From Chloroflexota bacterium (GTDB lineage: Bacteria; Chloroflexota; Anaerolineae; Promineifilales; Promineifilaceae): a stretch of 44,085 bases of DNA. Both the position numbers and the translations under genes were made by a program. Within the stretch, counting starts at the first letter, position 1. Each line of letters begins with the position of its first letter. The notes under the pieces are model-generated. The model searched no databases, was not told the origin of the DNA, and saw only the letters and a list, made by a program, of their open reading frames with translations. Positions 24,035 to 35,578 of this stretch are shown here, piece after piece. The stretch is from assembly GCA_022616275.1 (NCBI GenBank), contig JAKEFB010000048.1, positions 1-44,085 of the forward strand, written 5' to 3'.

Positions 24035-24086
24035 GGGTAATCAGGTAATTAAGTAATGGGGTAATTACTCAATTACCTGATTACCC
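24035..24086. repeat. Fold-back element of GTAATT-type words
   Basis: Perfect 16-base arms: GGGTAATCAGGTAATT (24035-24050) and AATTACCTGATTACCC (24071-24086), with a 20-base loop. Further copies of the same words extend to about 24101. It starts 3 bases after the radC stop and is AT-rich, unlike the genes around it. Confidence 0.8.
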
Positions 24087-28150: not shown

Positions 28151-29956
28151 TCAATCTTCGTCCAGCTTTAGAACCGCCATAAACGCTTCTTGGGGCACTT
28201 CCACGTTGCCAATCATTTTCATCCGCCGCTTGCCCTTCTTTTGCTTCTCTAAAAGTTTCTTTTTCCTGGTGATATCGCCGCCATAGCACTTTGCCAGAAC
28301 ATCCTTCCTTAGCGCCTTCACGTTCGCCCGGCTGACGACTTTGTTGCCCACGGCCGCCTGGATAGGCACCTCGAACAATTGGCGCGGGATCAGCTTGCGC
28401 AGCGCCGTGACCAGCTTTTGCCCCCGGTGAAAGGCGTCGTCCTTGTGGACGATCATGGCCAGGGCGTCCACCGGCTGCTTGTTGACCAGGATGTCCAGCT
28501 TGACCAGGTCAGAGGCCCGGTAGCCGGCAAACTCGTAGTCCATCGAGGCGTAGCCCCGCGTGGCGCTCTTCAGCTTGTCGTAAAAGTCCACCACAATTTC
28601 CGCCAGGGGAATGTCGAACTTCAAGATGATCCGGCCGGGCGCCGGGTACTCCTGGCCCATAAACTCGCCCCGCCGGCCCATGGCCAGCTCCATGATCACC
28701 CCGTAAAACTCGTCCGGGGTAAAGATGTGGACCTGCATCCACGGCTCGCGGATCTCCTCGATCTGGCCGGGGTCCGGCAGGTCGGCCGGGCTTTCAATCT
28801 GGACCACCTCACCCGTATGCGCCTTGACCACCTCGTAGCGGACGCTGGGCGCGGTGGCCACGATGTCCAGGTCGTACTCCCGCTCCAGCCGCTCCTGGAT
28901 AATCTCCATGTGGAACAGGCCCAGAAAACCGCAGCGGAAACCAAAGTTGAGGGCGTTGGACGTCTCCGGCTCAAAGACCAGGGAGGCGTCGTTCAGTTGC
29001 AGCTTTTCCAGCGCCTCTTTGAGCAACTGGTAATCCTCACCTTCGGTCGGATAAAAGCCGGCAAAGACCATCGGCTTGGCCGAGCGGTAGCCGGGCAACG
29101 GCTTCTCGGCCGGGTTGTCCCGCAAGGTGATCGTGTCGCCCACCCGGCACTCGCGCACCGTCTTCAGCCCCGTGGCAATGTAGCCCACTTCCCCGGCCGT
29201 CAATTCCTGGACCGGCTTCATCCCCGGCCGGAAAACGCCAATCTCGATTGGCTCGACCGTCACGTCGTTGGACATGATCTTGATCCACTCTCTATCCCGG
29301 ATAGTACCCTCAAAAATACGCACGTAGGCAATCACGCCTTTGTAGGAATCGTAGTGGGAATCAAAGACCAGCGCCCGCAGCGGAACCTGGGCGTCCCCTT
29401 GCGGTGGCGGCACGCGTTGGACGACCGCCTCCAGGACCTGTTCGACGTTAACCCCTGTCTTAGCACTGATGGGGATAACTTCCTCGGCGGCGATGCCGAT
29501 CAGGTTCTCCACTTCCGTGGCTACGTCGGCCGGCAGGGCGGCCGGCAGGTCAATCTTGTTGACCACCGGCACCAGCTCCAGGTCCGCCTCCAGGGCCAGG
29601 TAAAGGTTAGCCAGCGTCTGGGCCTCAATGCCCTGGGTGGCGTCCACGACCAGGATGGCCCCCTCGCAGCTTTGCAGGGCCCGGCTCACCTCGTAGGCAA
29701 AGTCCACGTGGCCGGGCGTGTCAATCAGGTTCATTTCGTAGCTCTGGCCGTCCTGGGCCGTGTACTCCATGCGCACGGCCGAGGCCTTAATCGTCACCCC
29801 TTTCTCCCGCTCCAGGTCCATAGTGTCCAGCACCTGCTCCTGCATTTCCCGCTCGGAGATCGTCCCGGTTATCTGCAGCAGCCGGTCGGCCAGGGTGGAC
29901 TTGCCGTGGTCAATGTGGGCGATAATGCAAAAATTACGAATCTTCTCTTGGTCCAT
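28151..29956 (-). CDS. lepA: Elongation factor 4 (LepA)
   Basis: 601-aa ribosome-associated GTPase that acts on stalled or mis-translocated ribosomes. G1 is [10 protein letters not shown]3 DTPGH and G4 NKID; the N-terminus [20 protein letters not shown] is canonical. Domain II, the EF-G-like domains III and V and the LepA-specific C-terminal domain are all recognisable ([20 protein letters not shown]; ending [19 protein letters not shown]). Length is normal. It is first in the lepA-pyrD unit. Confidence 0.98.
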
Positions 29957-30011
29957 AGACCCCCAAGTATAGCAGATTGGCGGCCTAAGGGGGAAAAGGA
30001 TTGAAAAACCC

Positions 30012-30998
30012 CTACAGCCACCGCCGCTGCCGCATCCACCAAAACATAAAGGCCGGCGCCACAGCCATGCCCAGCAGCGTCAGATAAAAGACCGGGTCGC
30101 CCATCCAGGCCGGCCGGGGATCGGGGCTGGCAAAAAAGTTCATACCGAAAAAGCCGACGACGAAGGACAGGGGCATGAACAGGCTGGTGATGATCGTCAG
30201 CGTCTTCATCACCTCGTTCATCCGGTTATTGACCAGCGACAGGTAGGTGTCCAGCGAGCCGCCCACCAGGTCCCGCAGGCTTTCGGCAATGTCGTGCAGC
30301 CGGACCAGATGGTCGTACACGTCGCGGAAGAAGACCTTGTCTTTGCTGTCAATCACCGTGTAATCGTCCCGGGCCAGCTTATTTAACACCTCCCGTTGCG
30401 GCCCAATGATGCGGCGCAGGTACAACAGGGACCGCTTCAGGCCAAAGAGGTCTTCCAGCGTTTGTGGCGTCGGCCGGTCAAAAATCTGGTCTTCCAACAG
30501 GTCTATAGCTTCGTCTATGCTATCCATGACCGGCATGTACTCGGCCACGATGGTGTCAATCACCCGGTACATCAGGTGGTCTGATCCCCGTCTCAGGTGG
30601 CGGTCGCCTCGCTGGTAGGCGTTCCAGACGTGGTCCACGGCCGCAATCCTCTCGTGGTGCAGGGTAATCAGGTAGTTGGCCCCCAGGAAAACGTCCATCT
30701 CCTGGGTACGCACTTCTATCTTTGGCTGCTGCTCACACACAATCGCGTGTAGCACCAGGTACAGGTACGATCCCCAATCGTCCACCTTGGGGACGTGCGA
30801 CTCCTGCAAGGCGTCGTCAATTGCCAGCGGGTGAAAGTCAAAGACTTCACGCAGAATAAGTTCCGACTTCTCCGGCGGTTCCTCGACAATATCTATCCAC
30901 AGCAAGCCATTGGGCGCTATAAGCGCCATGGCAAACTCCGTTGTTGGCAAGTCGAAACGCAGCGAACCATCCTGCGGCCGGTACATTGAGCGAATCAT
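30012..30998 (-). CDS. corA: CorA family magnesium/metal transporter
   Basis: 328-aa pentameric inner-membrane channel for Mg2+ (or Co2+/Ni2+). A large N-terminal cytoplasmic alpha/beta domain and long helix lead to two C-terminal membrane helices. The first ends in the signature GMN ([15 protein letters not shown]), and the second is [18 protein letters not shown], finishing with a basic [14 protein letters not shown] in the N-terminal domain and the [22 protein letters not shown] helix are family text. The ATG at 30998 has an AAGG site. It lies 55 bases upstream of lepA. Confidence 0.95.
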
Positions 30999-31203
30999 AT
31001 ACTGTTGCCTTCTTTACACGAAGCAGCAAAATAATGAACCATAATGGTATATAACCTGGAAGTGGCGTTCCCATCCCATGTGTTGCGTGTATTAGCACAA
31101 ACAGGAAAATAGTCAAGTTCATTCCAGGTTCGCAGGTCCATCGCCTGTTTTATTGGTTGCAGCCTGGAAGTTATCCCAGGCCTTTCTTGAAAGGAGAATT
31201 TCT

Positions 31204-31959
31204 ATGTCACGTTCCTCTAAGTTCCCCCGCTTTTTGGTCGTCATCATCCTTGTCCTTGTCCTGGCGGCCGGCTTTACGCTGGCAATTTCCGCCCAGGACC
31301 CCGACGACGGCGAACCCAACGAGGCCGGCCCGGCCGGACCAGCCCAGGAAACGGTTCACGAAGAAGAGATCGGAATCCAAAATCAGCAAGCCGGGGGCGC
31401 CGCTACGGACGGCAATGGCGAACCGGAGCGCCAACCCGCAACCACTACTAGCGTGGTCCAGGAAGAGGTGGGAAATACCCCCAATGACCCCGGCATGGCT
31501 ACTTTTTTCAAACGCTGGGCGGCCGAAACGTTCGTTGCTTACGACAGCAGCAACACCTGGGCCTATGATGGCGGCGGCTGCTTCCACCGCACCGGCGGCT
31601 CGACCTGGTGGGACACCGATCTCCAATTACCCGACGGGGCGGAAATTGATTATCTTCGCGTCTACTACTACGATATGAACGGTACTACGGATGCGGAGAC
31701 AATCCTATTTCAGTTTGACGATATCGGTGGCAACGTACAACTCGCTTCGGCGGCGGGCTCCGGTACTCCGGGCTATAGCTCGGCCGGGAGTGGTTTCTTT
31801 TCTCATTTTGTTGATAATACAGACCACTCCTACGTTCTCCGCATTGACTTCAACGGGGCGACAACCAGCGACTTGAGAATTTGCGCCGTGCGCATCCGCT
31901 ACCAGTACAACGTCGCCACCCTCAGCCTGCCGGCCATCATGAACCTGACCAGCCCGTAA
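31204..31959 (+). CDS. Small secreted protein with C-terminal LSLPAI tail
   Basis: 251-aa exported protein. The signal peptide is residues 1 to about 28 (SSKFPRFLVVIILVLVLAAG), with a likely cut near AISAQ. The next 70 residues are acidic, Gln/Gly-rich and disordered. The folded part (from about 105) is a beta sandwich of unknown family with TFVAYDSSNTWAYDGGGCFHR, DYLRVYYYDMNG and LRICAVRIRYQY. It ends with VATLSLPAIMNLTSP, matching the Leu-Pro-hydrophobic tails of two other secreted proteins here. The ATG at 31204 with GGAG upstream is better than the in-frame start at 31153, which would bury the signal peptide. Monocistronic. Confidence 0.8.
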   Translation: MSRSSKFPRFLVVIILVLVLAAGFTLAISAQDPDDGEPNEAGPAGPAQETVHEEEIGIQNQQAGGAATDGNGEPERQPATTTSVVQEEVGNTPNDPGMATFFKRWAAETFVAYDSSNTWAYDGGGCFHRTGGSTWWDTDLQLPDGAEIDYLRVYYYDMNGTTDAETILFQFDDIGGNVQLASAAGSGTPGYSSAGSGFFSHFVDNTDHSYVLRIDFNGATTSDLRICAVRIRYQYNVATLSLPAIMNLTSP

Positions 31960-31965
31960 CCGTTG

Positions 31966-32012
31966 GTAGAGACGTTGCAATGCGTAGAGACGTTGCAATG
32001 CAACGTCTCTAC
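31966..32012. repeat. Tandem and inverted GTAGAGACGTTGC element
   Basis: An 18-base unit GTAGAGACGTTGCAATGC is repeated directly (31966-31983, 31984-32001). The second copy pairs perfectly (13 bases) with GCAACGTCTCTAC at 32000-32012 around AAT. It starts 7 bases after the secreted-protein stop. It has the same GTAG...CTAC frame as the palindrome at 10213. Confidence 0.85.
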
Positions 32013-32059
32013 ATCTCCAGTAACTTTTCAGATTTATGGCAGATTGATAAACTGAAAGG

Positions 32060-32179
32060 ATGAGGCTGAGGGAAGAAGTCACAGCCCTGCGAGGAGCGAT
32101 ACGGCAGTTGGAAGGGGAAGTAGCCCGCTTGCAAGCGGAAAACAGCATCTCCATTTCGTTTGTCAGCTTCCCCTGGTAA
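32060..32179 (+). CDS. Possible 39-aa coiled-coil peptide upstream of the Hsp90-like gene
   Basis: An ATG ORF of 39 codons. Residues 3-28 form regular Leu heptads (LREEVTALRGAIRQLEGEVA...), a short leucine zipper, and the end is hydrophobic (ISISFVSFPW). An in-frame stop lies just upstream. The only purine-rich stretch (AAAGG) is too close to the ATG for a normal ribosome binding site. The stop is 20 bases before the Hsp90-like gene. It may be a real microprotein, a leader peptide or a remnant of a longer coiled-coil gene. Confidence 0.35.
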   Translation: MRLREEVTALRGAIRQLEGEVARLQAENSISISFVSFPW

Positions 32180-32199
32180 AGGTTAAAATCTCTACTTTA

Positions 32200-34035
32200 A
32201 TGACGACAAGCCAACGCTTTAACCTACACCTGCCCGGGCTGTTGGAAGTCCTGGCCGGTAGCCTCTACTCCACGCCCAAGGTCGGTATCCGGGAGTTAAT
32301 CCAGAATGCCCACGATAGCTGCGTGCGCCGCCAGATAGAGGGAGAGTCGCGTTTTTACCGGCCGGCCATCACCATCACCAGCGACGAACAGCGCGGCGTT
32401 CTGACTATCCGGGACAACGGCCACGGCCTGACGGCCGACGAAATTGAAGAATACCTGGCCACCATCGGCCGCAGTTACACCGCCCAACTGAAAAGCGACC
32501 TGGCCATCTTTTCGCCGGACGAAGCGGCCGAGCTGATTGGGCAATTCGGTTTTGGCTTCCTCAGCGCCTTCCTGCTGGCCGACGAAGTGACCCTGGTCAC
32601 CCGTTCCCTCCACGCCGGCCCTGGCGAAGCCCTGCGCTGGCACTCCAGCGGCGGCGAATATTACCAGGTCGAGCCGGCTACCCGCCATGACGTAGGCACG
32701 ACAGTCGAGCTGCGCGTCAAGCCCAGCGCCGCTTTCGTCTTCGACGAGGAATTGTTGGTGGAGACGATCCAGCTCTACGCCGACCTGCTGGCCGTCCCTA
32801 TTTTCGTCAACGACGACCCGGCGCCCGCCAACCTGATGACGCCGCCATGGAACGATCCCCAACCGGCGCAGGCCATTGTCAACTACATCCGGCGCGCCTT
32901 CCAGGAAAGCCAGCCACTGTGCATCGTCCAGTTGCACGACCAGGAAATTGACCTGGGCGGCGATAGCCTGGTGGTGCCGCTCAAGGGCTTTCTCTTTGTG
33001 CCACCCAGCTCCGTCGCCTCGGTGCGCGAATACGGCGACCTGAAGGTCTTTATCCGGCGCATGTTTATCTGCGAACGGGAGCGCAAGCTACTGCCGCGCT
33101 GGGCCAGATTTGTCTGGGGGGCGATTGATTGTCCCTACCTGCAGCCTACTGCCTCGCGCGAGAGTATCCACGAGGACGACATCTTTGCCGCCGTGCGCCG
33201 CGCCCTGGAAAGCCAACTGGGCGCGGCCCTCCAGCGCATTGCCGACCAGGAACCGGAAACGTGGCGGCGCATTGTCTGGGGCCACACCGACGTCATCACC
33301 GGTTGGGCGGTGCGCGACGACGCTTTCTTTGAGCGGGTGGCCAACATCGTCACCTTCCGCACCTCGGCCGGCCCCATGACCCTGCCGGAATACCTGGCCC
33401 AGACCGGGCACACCCTTTATTTCCTCACCCGGCACATCGGCGCGCTACAAGAACAGTTGCTGGCCGAGGGCCACGATGCGCCGGTCATAGACGCCCATTG
33501 GTTCGCCGTCAAGCCGTTTCTGGAGAAGTACGCCGCCTGGCACGAAGGGATTGGCTTGGTCCAAATGGACGGCCAGGTCAAGCACCTGCTCCGGCCGGTG
33601 GCCCCCGCTCCTTTCAGCCGCCTGCTGGTCTACTACCAGGAGCAGGGCATCGCGGCCGAGGTGGTCGCTTTCAAGCCGGCCGACGTGCCGGCCCTGATGG
33701 TCTACCCGTCCGAGGTTGAGCTGATTATGGAGACGCGCCAGGCGCTGGATAAGGATGAGCTACCCGGCGAGCTGGCCGGCCTGGTGACCGACTACCTGGA
33801 CAGTTATGCCGATGCCGAAGAGGTAGAGTTACAGGGCAGGCTATACCTGAACGCCTCCTGCGCCCTCATCCAGCAGCTTGCCAAAGCGCCGCCTGACCAG
33901 CCGGTCCTGGAAGCGACGCTGGGGCTCATCTACCAGGTGGCCCGCCTGTTCTCCGGCCGGGCGCTGACGGCCGCCGACGCCGCCCTGGCCTTTCGCCAGG
34001 CCGTTAGCGCATTGGAGGTCTTGATTTCATCATGA
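32200..34035 (+). CDS. Hsp90-family ATPase (HtpG-like, divergent C-terminus)
   Basis: 611-aa GHKL ATPase, first gene of a three-gene unit. ATP site: RELIQNAHDSC with Glu32 and Asn36, RDNGHGL (72-77) and IGQFGFGFLSAF (113-124). The middle domain aligns by eye with HtpG: FLFVPPSSVASV, LKVFIRRMFICERERKLLPRWARFVWGAIDC, then TASRESIHED in place of the usual NVSRE loop, keeping the Arg that contacts ATP. The last 200 residues do not resemble the HtpG dimerisation domain closely, and there is no MEEVD tail. The protein probably acts as a specialised chaperone or ATP-driven clamp. The ATG at 32200 has weak purines upstream. The final ATGA overlaps the TPR-like gene. Confidence 0.88.
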   Translation: MTTSQRFNLHLPGLLEVLAGSLYSTPKVGIRELIQNAHDSCVRRQIEGESRFYRPAITITSDEQRGVLTIRDNGHGLTADEIEEYLATIGRSYTAQLKSDLAIFSPDEAAELIGQFGFGFLSAFLLADEVTLVTRSLHAGPGEALRWHSSGGEYYQVEPATRHDVGTTVELRVKPSAAFVFDEELLVETIQLYADLLAVPIFVNDDPAPANLMTPPWNDPQPAQAIVNYIRRAFQESQPLCIVQLHDQEIDLGGDSLVVPLKGFLFVPPSSVASVREYGDLKVFIRRMFICERERKLLPRWARFVWGAIDCPYLQPTASRESIHEDDIFAAVRRALESQLGAALQRIADQEPETWRRIVWGHTDVITGWAVRDDAFFERVANIVTFRTSAGPMTLPEYLAQTGHTLYFLTRHIGALQEQLLAEGHDAPVIDAHWFAVKPFLEKYAAWHEGIGLVQMDGQVKHLLRPVAPAPFSRLLVYYQEQGIAAEVVAFKPADVPALMVYPSEVELIMETRQALDKDELPGELAGLVTDYLDSYADAEEVELQGRLYLNASCALIQQLAKAPPDQPVLEATLGLIYQVARLFSGRALTAADAALAFRQAVSALEVLISS

Positions 34036-35102
34036 GTATTTGGGACTGGGTTGAAGAGTATCGCTGGCGGGCCATGTTTGAGGGCAACGACGAACAACTG
34101 GCCATGTCCGAGCTGGCCTCACTGGAAGCGCTGGTGGTTATGGACGCCGACCCCGACCAGATGTTGAGCATGTTGGAACAGGCCCAGGCCATGGCCCGCC
34201 AGCTCAACGAGCCGTGGTGGGAGTTGTTTTGCGAGCATTGGAAGCTCCAGGCCCTCCTCTTCCGCAAGCGGGACTATCGGGCCGCCCTGCCGGCCGCGGT
34301 CAAGGCCACCGTAGAAACCCGCAAGCCGGCGTACGCCCACTTTCCGCAGCGCATCTGCCTGCACGAGGACCTGATCAACGCTTACGTGGGCATTGACCCC
34401 CTGGGCAACGAAGCGGCGATTGAGAATGCCCTCAGCTACATGACCCAGGAGATCAACCCGGAGTTGGAATGCTGGCATTGCCTCCACTCGCTGCGCGTCG
34501 AGTTTCAGATCGGCCGCGGCCGCTGGAACGAAGCCCTGGCCGAGGGCCTGCGTTATCTTGCCACCAGCGATGGCGGGGAGTATTACGAGTGCGACGCTTA
34601 TAACCTGTTGTGCGAGATTGCCCTTGCCCTGGGAGACGACGAGAAGCTGGCCGGCTGGGCCAGAGAAGGAGAAAAAATCGCTCGACGTTCCAGCCGGGAA
34701 CTGATGCTGGCCAACCTGTTGGCCTGGCGGGTGCTGGCCGCCCGGCGCGCCGGCGACGAAAAGGCGGCCCGGAAGTTGTACCAGGCGGCCGTGACCCAGG
34801 CCGAGCGCCTGGCCTCTGTCCCTTCGCGCACCTATTACCAGGCCCTTAGCGCCTACCATGAAACGGCCGGCGAGTTGGAGCAGGCCCTCCAGGTACGCCG
34901 GCAAGAGCTGGAGGCCATTGGCGGCAAAGGCCAACTGATTGCCGAGTACGTGATCCGGCGCGACCAGTGCCGCCTGCTGGCCCAACTGGGCCGGCCGTTC
35001 ACCGCTGAGCTGGCCCAGGCCCGCCAGGCCGCCCAGGCCCTCAAGAACCCGGCCCCCTACCTGGCGGAACTGGATGGGGTCGCCGGCCATCAAGATATCT
35101 GA
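34032..35102 (+). CDS. TPR-like helical repeat protein, partner of the Hsp90-like ATPase
   Basis: 356-aa all-helical protein with no signal peptide. Helix pairs of about 34-40 residues with TPR-like text occur throughout: WELFCEHWKLQALLFRKRDYRAALPAAVKA, YNLLCEIALALGDDEKLAGWAREGEK, AWRVLAARRAGDEKAARKLYQAAV and YYQALSAYHETAGELEQALQVRRQE. It starts within the stop of the Hsp90-like gene and ends sharing TGATG with the next gene, so the three products are probably made in fixed ratio. TPR proteins are the classic Hsp90 co-chaperones in eukaryotes; a similar partnership here is an inference from gene order only. Confidence 0.75.
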   Translation: MSIWDWVEEYRWRAMFEGNDEQLAMSELASLEALVVMDADPDQMLSMLEQAQAMARQLNEPWWELFCEHWKLQALLFRKRDYRAALPAAVKATVETRKPAYAHFPQRICLHEDLINAYVGIDPLGNEAAIENALSYMTQEINPELECWHCLHSLRVEFQIGRGRWNEALAEGLRYLATSDGGEYYECDAYNLLCEIALALGDDEKLAGWAREGEKIARRSSRELMLANLLAWRVLAARRAGDEKAARKLYQAAVTQAERLASVPSRTYYQALSAYHETAGELEQALQVRRQELEAIGGKGQLIAEYVIRRDQCRLLAQLGRPFTAELAQARQAAQALKNPAPYLAELDGVAGHQDI

Positions 35103-35578
35103 TGGCCGGCGACCCTATCCACCCTCAGGTCCATGACCCCAACCCGGAGCCACCGTCGGCCGATCCCGATTTCATCCTGGCCCTGCCAGACGGCCGGGAA
35201 GAGCGGATCAGGCCGGACCGGTTGCGGACCCTGCCCTTTACCGCCGTGCCCAACTGCTTCGTCGTCAGCACCGGCCACGGAACTTCCGGTCCCTTTACCT
35301 TTGGCGGCGTCACCCTGTTGGAGTTTATCTACGCCCTGGCCGGCCGGGAGGCGGCCTGGTCCCAGGTCGAAGTCATCAGCGCCGACGGTTTTGGCACGGG
35401 CATCCTGGCCGGCGAGCTGGCCCACCCCGACCCGGCCGGTCCTATTCTGCTCAGCTACACCCTGGACGGCCGGCCGATGACCCGCCAGGAGGGCCTGGTC
35501 CGCCTCATCGTCCCCAACGAAAAAGACGACGCCCTGCGCCAGGTCAAGTGGGTCGGCCGGATTAACTTGAAACCCTGA
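35102..35578 (+). CDS. Stand-alone molybdopterin-oxidoreductase-fold domain (sulfite-oxidase-like)
   Basis: 158-aa protein resembling the Oxidored_molyb (sulfite oxidase/MsrP) fold. GPFTFGGVTLLEFIYALAG, VEVISADGFGTGILAGEL, LLSYTLDGRPMTRQEGLVRLIVPN and VKWVGRINL follow the family order. Cys52 (PNCFVVS) could be the molybdenum ligand, but the region around it is not typical and the protein is shorter than catalytic members, with no dimerisation domain, Tat signal or heme domain. It may be a non-catalytic binding module or bind cofactor with a partner. It overlaps the TPR-like gene by one base. No molybdopterin synthesis genes are in the window. Confidence 0.7.
   Translation: MAGDPIHPQVHDPNPEPPSADPDFILALPDGREERIRPDRLRTLPFTAVPNCFVVSTGHGTSGPFTFGGVTLLEFIYALAGREAAWSQVEVISADGFGTGILAGELAHPDPAGPILLSYTLDGRPMTRQEGLVRLIVPNEKDDALRQVKWVGRINLKP

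Follow-up and report, generated by a model that had tools for sequence, protein, structure and literature searches.

A candidate two-gene chaperone module of an Hsp90-type ATPase and a TPR-type protein in a Chloroflexota bacterium

In a 44,085-nt window (the whole stretch of DNA that was analysed, to which positions refer unless a locus is named) of a Chloroflexota bacterium from the Promineifilaceae (GCA_022616275.1, contig JAKEFB010000048.1), a gene for an Hsp90-family ATPase, gene 1, is followed by a gene for a tetratricopeptide repeat (TPR)-type protein, gene 2. The two were found to belong to an old, widely conserved pair, whereas the trio formed with the adjoining gene 3 is not conserved as a system. 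The pair would constitute a two-gene chaperone module in which gene 2 encodes a client adaptor or co-chaperone of the gene 1 product, a reading to which a probability of roughly 0.55 is given. Gene 1, PRK14083-like and outside HtpG proper, was located at 32200–34035 (plus strand, 611 aa), gene 2 at 34032–35102 (plus strand, 356 aa), and gene 3, a stand-alone PF00174 (sulfite-oxidase-fold) domain, at 35102–35578 (plus strand, 158 aa). The three overlapping reading frames, described in an earlier note on this DNA, were confirmed in the sequence together with the ATGA junction of genes 1 and 2 (34032–34035) and the TGATG junction of genes 2 and 3 (35100–35104).

Conservation of the gene pair

The linkage was followed in 80 loci with gene 1 relatives, taken with flanks of up to 8 kb to either side; these were the best 80 of 544 in a named genome collection and not a random sample. 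The next gene on the same strand matched a TPR profile of five sequences (gene 2 and four of its relatives) in 46/80 loci. After iteration of the profile the adjacent match was detected in 52/80 loci along with 16 other matches, but since the iterated profile was trained on the genes being counted, 46/80 is the fair figure. When the seed profile was run over all 3444 open reading frames (ORFs) of the 80 loci, only 7 other matches were obtained, of which 6 shared the strand of gene 1 and either lay downstream of it or overlapped it. The matched downstream ORFs overlapped the gene 1 stop codon or began within 60 bp of it in 40 of 51 cases, and a TPR gene was found downstream by Pfam in three further loci (L160, L162, L167). 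The pair loci span Chloroflexota, Planctomycetota, Actinomycetota and Proteobacteria, and by the iterated profile the pair was present in 34 of 50 organism labels.

The same test with ordinary HtpG loci resulted in no TPR neighbour (0/22, all from Chloroflexota, 19 of which had a testable ORF). Shortened to about the downstream length of the HtpG loci, the pair loci still gave a match in 45/76 cases; the length used, 860 bases, is the median from an HtpG set with 8/22 loci on the wrong strand. The distances between gene 1 relatives and between gene 2 relatives correlated with a Spearman coefficient of 0.82 over 34 loci, a value that was reached in 0/500 permutations and is uncorrected for species kinship. 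The partnership of Hsp90 and TPR proteins put forward in the earlier note is supported, with a wider spread than that note could know, while the three-part machine built upon it is not.

Within the class of the window, gene 1 relatives were detected at E 1e-55 in 10/397 genomes, the window's genome included. A gene 2 relative adjoins gene 1 in the window and in three other genomes (G446, G550, G650), a different TPR gene stands beside the gene 1 relative in G376, and in G634 the TPR genes lie upstream. Gene 1 of G557 is followed by other genes, and in G336 the contig ends less than 0.9 kb from gene 1. TPR genes of other lengths adjoin gene 1 relatives in G376, in G110 and on a Streptomyces plasmid. 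The order TPR gene and then two gene 1-like genes, all on one strand, was met in another genus, in one of six inspected genomes. A transketolase gene takes the place of the TPR gene after gene 1 in two Chloroflexota relatives, L082 (3059–6939) and L095 (463–4612), the assignment being made by Pfam for L095 and by reading of the sequence for L082. Apart from gene 1 and the TPR gene, no recurrent neighbour was convincing, in a clustering made less sharp by the shadow ORFs of GC-rich loci.

In the case of E. coli, the pair was found on the chromosome with both genes together in 245/5426 genomes, with at least 80% of each gene covered in every match. In both inspected records (L168, L169 8854–11836) it is flanked by fdhD and yiiG and stands directly downstream of fdhD, which is a formate dehydrogenase accessory gene. 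Of 122 neighbour proteins picked from the loci, 63 were scanned with PADLOC and Pfam, giving counts without a background rate; these 63 belonged mostly to mixed Pfam families, and two of them matched the FdhD family. The P. aeruginosa pair is, by gene order, presumably PA1068-PA1069. Its "plasmid" copy (L038, NZ_CP131792.1) is placed among chromosome-type genes (liv, flg), and the megaplasmid record therefore seems to hold a chromosomal segment.

Properties of the gene 1 and gene 2 products

Gene 1 was matched above cut-off by both the HSP90 and the HATPase_c_3 models of Pfam. The best NCBIfam model was NF010683 "HSP90 family protein" (PRK14083) with 312.4 bits over residues 3–605, below the cut-off of 455, and the score with the htpG model NF003555 was 224.9 bits, below the cut-off of 371. 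In a FastTree tree of 114 sequences, calculated from the first 480 residues and with a few genomes entered twice, the 91 sequences of the gene 1 group were split from 23 HtpG sequences with a support of 1.0. A second HSP90-family gene is present elsewhere in the window's genome with a Pfam score of 337 bits vs 41 bits of gene 1, and this stronger gene was taken as the HtpG of that genome.

The catalysis by Hsp90 proteins relies on a glutamate as the general base and on an arginine of the middle domain. Residues E32, N36, D72, G74, G76, G114, G117, G119 and R320 were invariant across 40 aligned proteins of the gene 1 group. The window gene 1 carries Y23, R31-E32-L33, N36, D39, G74, G76 and G114-Q115-F116-G117, and also G166, P299 and S319-R320-E321, all assigned by motif matching without alignment to the reference of PMC1525184. 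The residues common to all Hsp90 subfamilies are, in Table 4 of the accessible part of that paper, Y, REL, N, D, G, G, GQFG, G, P and SRE. The claim of the earlier note that gene 1 is a real Hsp90-family ATPase with intact ATP motifs is borne out by the Pfam matches and by these residues, and its product would be expected to hydrolyse ATP and to dimerise.

The C-terminus had been called divergent, which is correct as to its sequence; it is, however, not foreign, as a profile of 40 family members spans nearly all of HtpG (residues 3–609 of 624) and was aligned to TRAP1 nearly over its full length too. Judged by this profile, the divergence is a drift in sequence with the C-terminal domain present. 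The protein ends with ...ALEVLISS and has no MEEVD. In three gene 1 relatives (L083 10972–13785, L040 9932–12565, L084 7957–10308) long C-terminal extensions were observed which can be aligned with each other, that of the Pseudanabaena relative among them.

The gene possibly belongs to the Group B or Group C HTPG copies of Chen 2006, as these are described in the accessible part of PMC1525184. The same part states that Archaea have no HTPG. In L105, a metagenome-assembled genome labelled Euryarchaeota for which contamination is possible, a gene 1 relative was nevertheless observed together with TPR-type neighbours. Gene 1 was also matched by 34 phage records; among the 10 listed, the best was a Salmonella contig, and the others were short unannotated pieces or annotated htpG.

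Gene 2 itself was matched by no Pfam model at E 0.1, and its description as TPR-like in the earlier note was supported by way of its relatives. The iterated profile groups it with TPR proteins, PF13424 (TPR_12) was matched by 6/14 aligned proteins of the gene 2 family, and the comparison of the gene 2 profile with TPR proteins, profile against profile, resulted in E 6.9e-6 and a probability of 85% over 278 columns. A profile-based search among solved structures gave weak partial matches only, one of which was a TPR regulator at E 0.015. The TPR nature is thus well supported for the family and probable for the window member. The partner proteins were of two main sizes, about 340–430 and 730–820 aa. 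Genome G650 (contigs C23 and C41) contains 18 extra gene 2 paralogues beyond the copy adjacent to gene 1, 15 of which are in two arrays, and the frame of one paralogue is interrupted by a stop codon.

Gene 3 and the interval behind lepA

Gene 3 scored 27.6 bits with the PF00174 model (cut-off 24), so the sulfite-oxidase-type domain named in the earlier note was recovered from the sequence. Three gene 3 relatives reached 44.6, 39.5 and 23.4 bits, the last being just below the cut-off. The column of the canonical cysteine holds Cys in 6/11 aligned longer PF00174 proteins (11 of 13 proteins tried were recovered) and V or Y in 4/4 members of the gene 3 family. Three residues before this column, Cys52 is Cys in 20/30 gene 3 proteins and absent in 10/30. 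It could be the ligand if the proteins are aligned differently, with a short insertion. The statement that gene 3 is simply without a ligand cysteine was rejected as too strong due to the nearby Cys in 20/30 proteins, and binding of molybdenum by the gene 3 product is possible but not favoured. The loading of molybdenum cofactor was considered and dropped; nothing was found in support of this role, which had been suggested in the earlier note.

The distribution of gene 3 differs from that of gene 1. Gene 3 relatives were found in 0/80 loci of gene 1 relatives, where only tblastn matches at E 0.02 to 0.7 were obtained, and no gene 3 match was detected among plasmids at E 0.001. In the family of the window, gene 3 is present in 30/53 genomes and gene 1 in 3/53, the window's genome being included in both counts; the two other family genomes with both genes (G460, G550) have them on different contigs. 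The neighbourhoods of gene 3 relatives were inspected in 29 stretches, derived from 28 family genomes and G088, with G680 and the second copy of G672 left out. A gene 1 relative was present within 0/29 of these stretches, and in 19/29 the gene 3 relative stands divergently beside lepA with a gap of 51–347 bp. The corresponding neighbour in the window, presumably lepA (EF-4), a name given on recognising its sequence, lies at 28151–29956 on the minus strand and showed a tblastn identity of 81.5–84.4% in five relatives.

In the window about 5.1 kb, containing CorA, ORF 31153, gene 1 and gene 2, are located between lepA and gene 3 (29957–35101, an interval to which no strand applies). The flanks of L184 and L186 match the window on both sides, from the AI-2E-type transporter and DHOD through lepA to FtsJ and the epimerase. 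The adjacency of lepA and gene 3 in the relatives together with the matching flanks indicates that this order is ancestral and that the interval of the window is inserted DNA. Gene 3 is therefore most likely an unrelated neighbour, a bystander which was placed behind the pair by the insertion. The three-gene system of the earlier note was rejected on this synteny, and the note itself had named homologues of gene 1 usually lacking the other two genes as evidence against its proposal; gene 3 was missing beside gene 1 relatives throughout (0/80 loci).

A feature overlooked in the earlier note is a 22-bp inverted repeat with 95% complementarity (35071–35092 and 35100–35121) exactly over the stop codon of gene 2 and the start codon of gene 3, which folds on the plus strand as a hairpin at 35071–35121 with a 22-bp stem and a 7-nt loop. 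Its stability was determined to be -57.7 kcal/mol compared with a shuffle mean of -31.9 (z -7.58), and 0/200 shuffles were equally stable. In five lepA-linked relatives no comparable fold was found at the start of gene 3, the values being -10.6 to -15.7 vs -56.7 for a similar-sized stretch of the window. An equally good inverted repeat (21/22, loop 3–12) occurs at only one other site of the window, near 24036. Through termination-reinitiation the hairpin may make gene 3 depend on gene 2; it may otherwise be an insertion scar or an assembly artefact. Upstream of gene 1, at a distance of about 190 bp, the palindromic repeat GTAGAGACGTTGCAATGCAACGTCTCTAC was observed at 31966–32012, its left part being present once more as a direct copy; genome-wide there are 10 exact palindromic sites vs 0 for the reversed control.

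Function of the pair and comparison with known systems

The gene 1 product would act as an Hsp90-type clamp, dimeric and driven by ATP, and the gene 2 product as a TPR-type solenoid which binds the clamp or its clients and serves as a dedicated co-chaperone or client adaptor. Gene 3 would be outside the module; at present it is read after gene 2, to which the hairpin at the junction perhaps couples it. The Hsp90 membership, the intact ATPase residues, the conserved linkage and the co-occurrence make a co-chaperone or adaptor the simplest explanation. The physical contact of the two products and the adaptor role are suggested by these features of the genes; since the C-terminus of gene 1 is without MEEVD, the contact is probably not achieved via the eukaryotic route. 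A broader proposal, tentative and given somewhat less than even odds, is that the group represents a second Hsp90 lineage of bacteria which works with a TPR partner encoded in the same genome, that this teamwork is independent of the MEEVD version, and that gene 2-type proteins, expanded in some genomes, are interchangeable client adaptors.

Several observations weigh against the module. Linkage of genes does not prove contact of their products. No adjacent TPR match was present in 28/80 loci even by the iterated profile. Among these 28, the contig ends inside gene 1 in L119, L124 and L134, L146 retains 303 bp, and a TPR match was found by another route in L118, L160, L162 and L167. The absences look genuine in L095, where gene 1 is followed by transketolase, and in L091, L144 and L150 with other genes following; in L089 other genes adjoin gene 1 and the gene 2 relative is on a separate contig. 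G240 is likewise without an adjacent TPR gene. Finally, a log2 change of -1.98 is given for PA1069 in a heat-stress RNA-seq table whose column heads were not visible in the accessible part of PMC4957987, which indicates that the pair need not be heat-induced.

The linkage and co-occurrence of the pair fit equally well with a private chaperone, where the purpose of gene 1 is to fold or hold a gene 2 product that is itself the client or effector, and the 18 further paralogues of G650 suggest a job of their own for gene 2-type proteins. However, gene 2 relatives located away from gene 1 in G240 and G460 need no neighbouring Hsp90, and this alternative is considered unlikely. It is still less probable that the pair is a defence or conflict module with the Hsp90 ATPase as the switch and the TPR protein as the sensor. 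Such a role is suggested by a few side branches: the Thermoflexus relative (L085) has a TIR-domain gene and several TPR genes in its vicinity, and the relative on a Pseudanabaena plasmid, which is beside a TIR gene, has a C-terminal stretch scoring 19.5 bits with the CAP12-PCTIR TIR model (below the cut-off of 24.7). In contrast, genes 2 and 3 had no match in PADLOC 2.0.0 and gene 1 had only weak, partial ones in the ATPase domain (TmtA, REase_II; E 1.1e-5 to 6.5e-3), and among the 63 neighbour proteins 10 PADLOC models were matched at 1e-10 by one or two proteins each (including dGTPase, mad2 and PycC). The scanned neighbours in the window are non-defence genes, and the E. coli pair occupies the same ordinary-looking chromosomal site in both inspected records. 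The main text of DefensePredictor (PMC13092281) contains no "Hsp90", "HtpG" or "chaperone" in its accessible part. A general defence module was set aside as weak on the PADLOC scans, and the stress or defence module of the earlier note survives as a minority reading.

The joint action of all three products, for instance in molybdenum cofactor loading, is very improbable. The overlapping stop and start codons speak for it, together with the hairpin through which translation of gene 3 would be coupled to that of gene 2, as does the Cys near the expected place of the metal ligand in 20/30 gene 3 proteins; this Cys is nevertheless absent in 10/30 and three residues off the canonical column. The unequal occurrence of gene 3 and gene 1 (30/53 vs 3/53 genomes), the absence of gene 3 from the loci of gene 1 relatives (0/80) and its position by lepA in 19/29 cases and by gene 1 in 0/29 are against it as well. 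The locus is a warning that three coupled genes need not be one machine, as the insertion here explains the third gene.

The broader proposal, if true, would mean that Hsp90-TPR teamwork exists in bacteria independently of the MEEVD-based eukaryotic version, and the pair could show whether such teamwork arose more than once. With the pair in 34/50 organism labels, including 245 E. coli genomes, a bacterial Hsp90 co-chaperone becomes directly testable. Neither a published study of the gene 1–gene 2 pair nor a functional study of PA1068-PA1069 was found among the papers listed.

Among known systems, PA1068-PA1069 of P. aeruginosa is alike in having adjacent Hsp90-like and TPR-type genes and differs in the size of the TPR-type product, 764 aa vs 356 aa in the window. 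In the accessible part of PMC4053335, PA1069 is noted in passing to appear operonic with Hsp90 and is described as reduced in abundance or undetected in biofilms of efhP mutants; it is also listed in the section on BatR interactions in the part available of PMC13411936. The family NF010683/PRK14083 resembles gene 1 over residues 3–605, and its member on the Streptomyces plasmid, with 825 bits, is followed by a TPR gene. The window copy reached 312 vs the cut-off of 455, and the model covers the ATPase only and not the pair. HtpG (NF003555) has in common with gene 1 the architecture of N-terminal, middle and C-terminal Hsp90 domains and the ATPase residues. It differs in forming a separate clade (support 1.0), in a model cut-off which gene 1 does not reach, and in having no TPR neighbour in the Chloroflexota loci (0/22). 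According to the accessible parts of the sources, no co-chaperone is known for E. coli HtpG (PMC4428384) and the Hop orthologue is missing from bacteria (PMC7688965). The eukaryotic Hsp90 with its TPR co-chaperones (Hop/Sti1, Cpr6) is alike in joining an Hsp90 to a TPR protein, and differs from the pair described here in the MEEVD tail, which gene 1 does not have.

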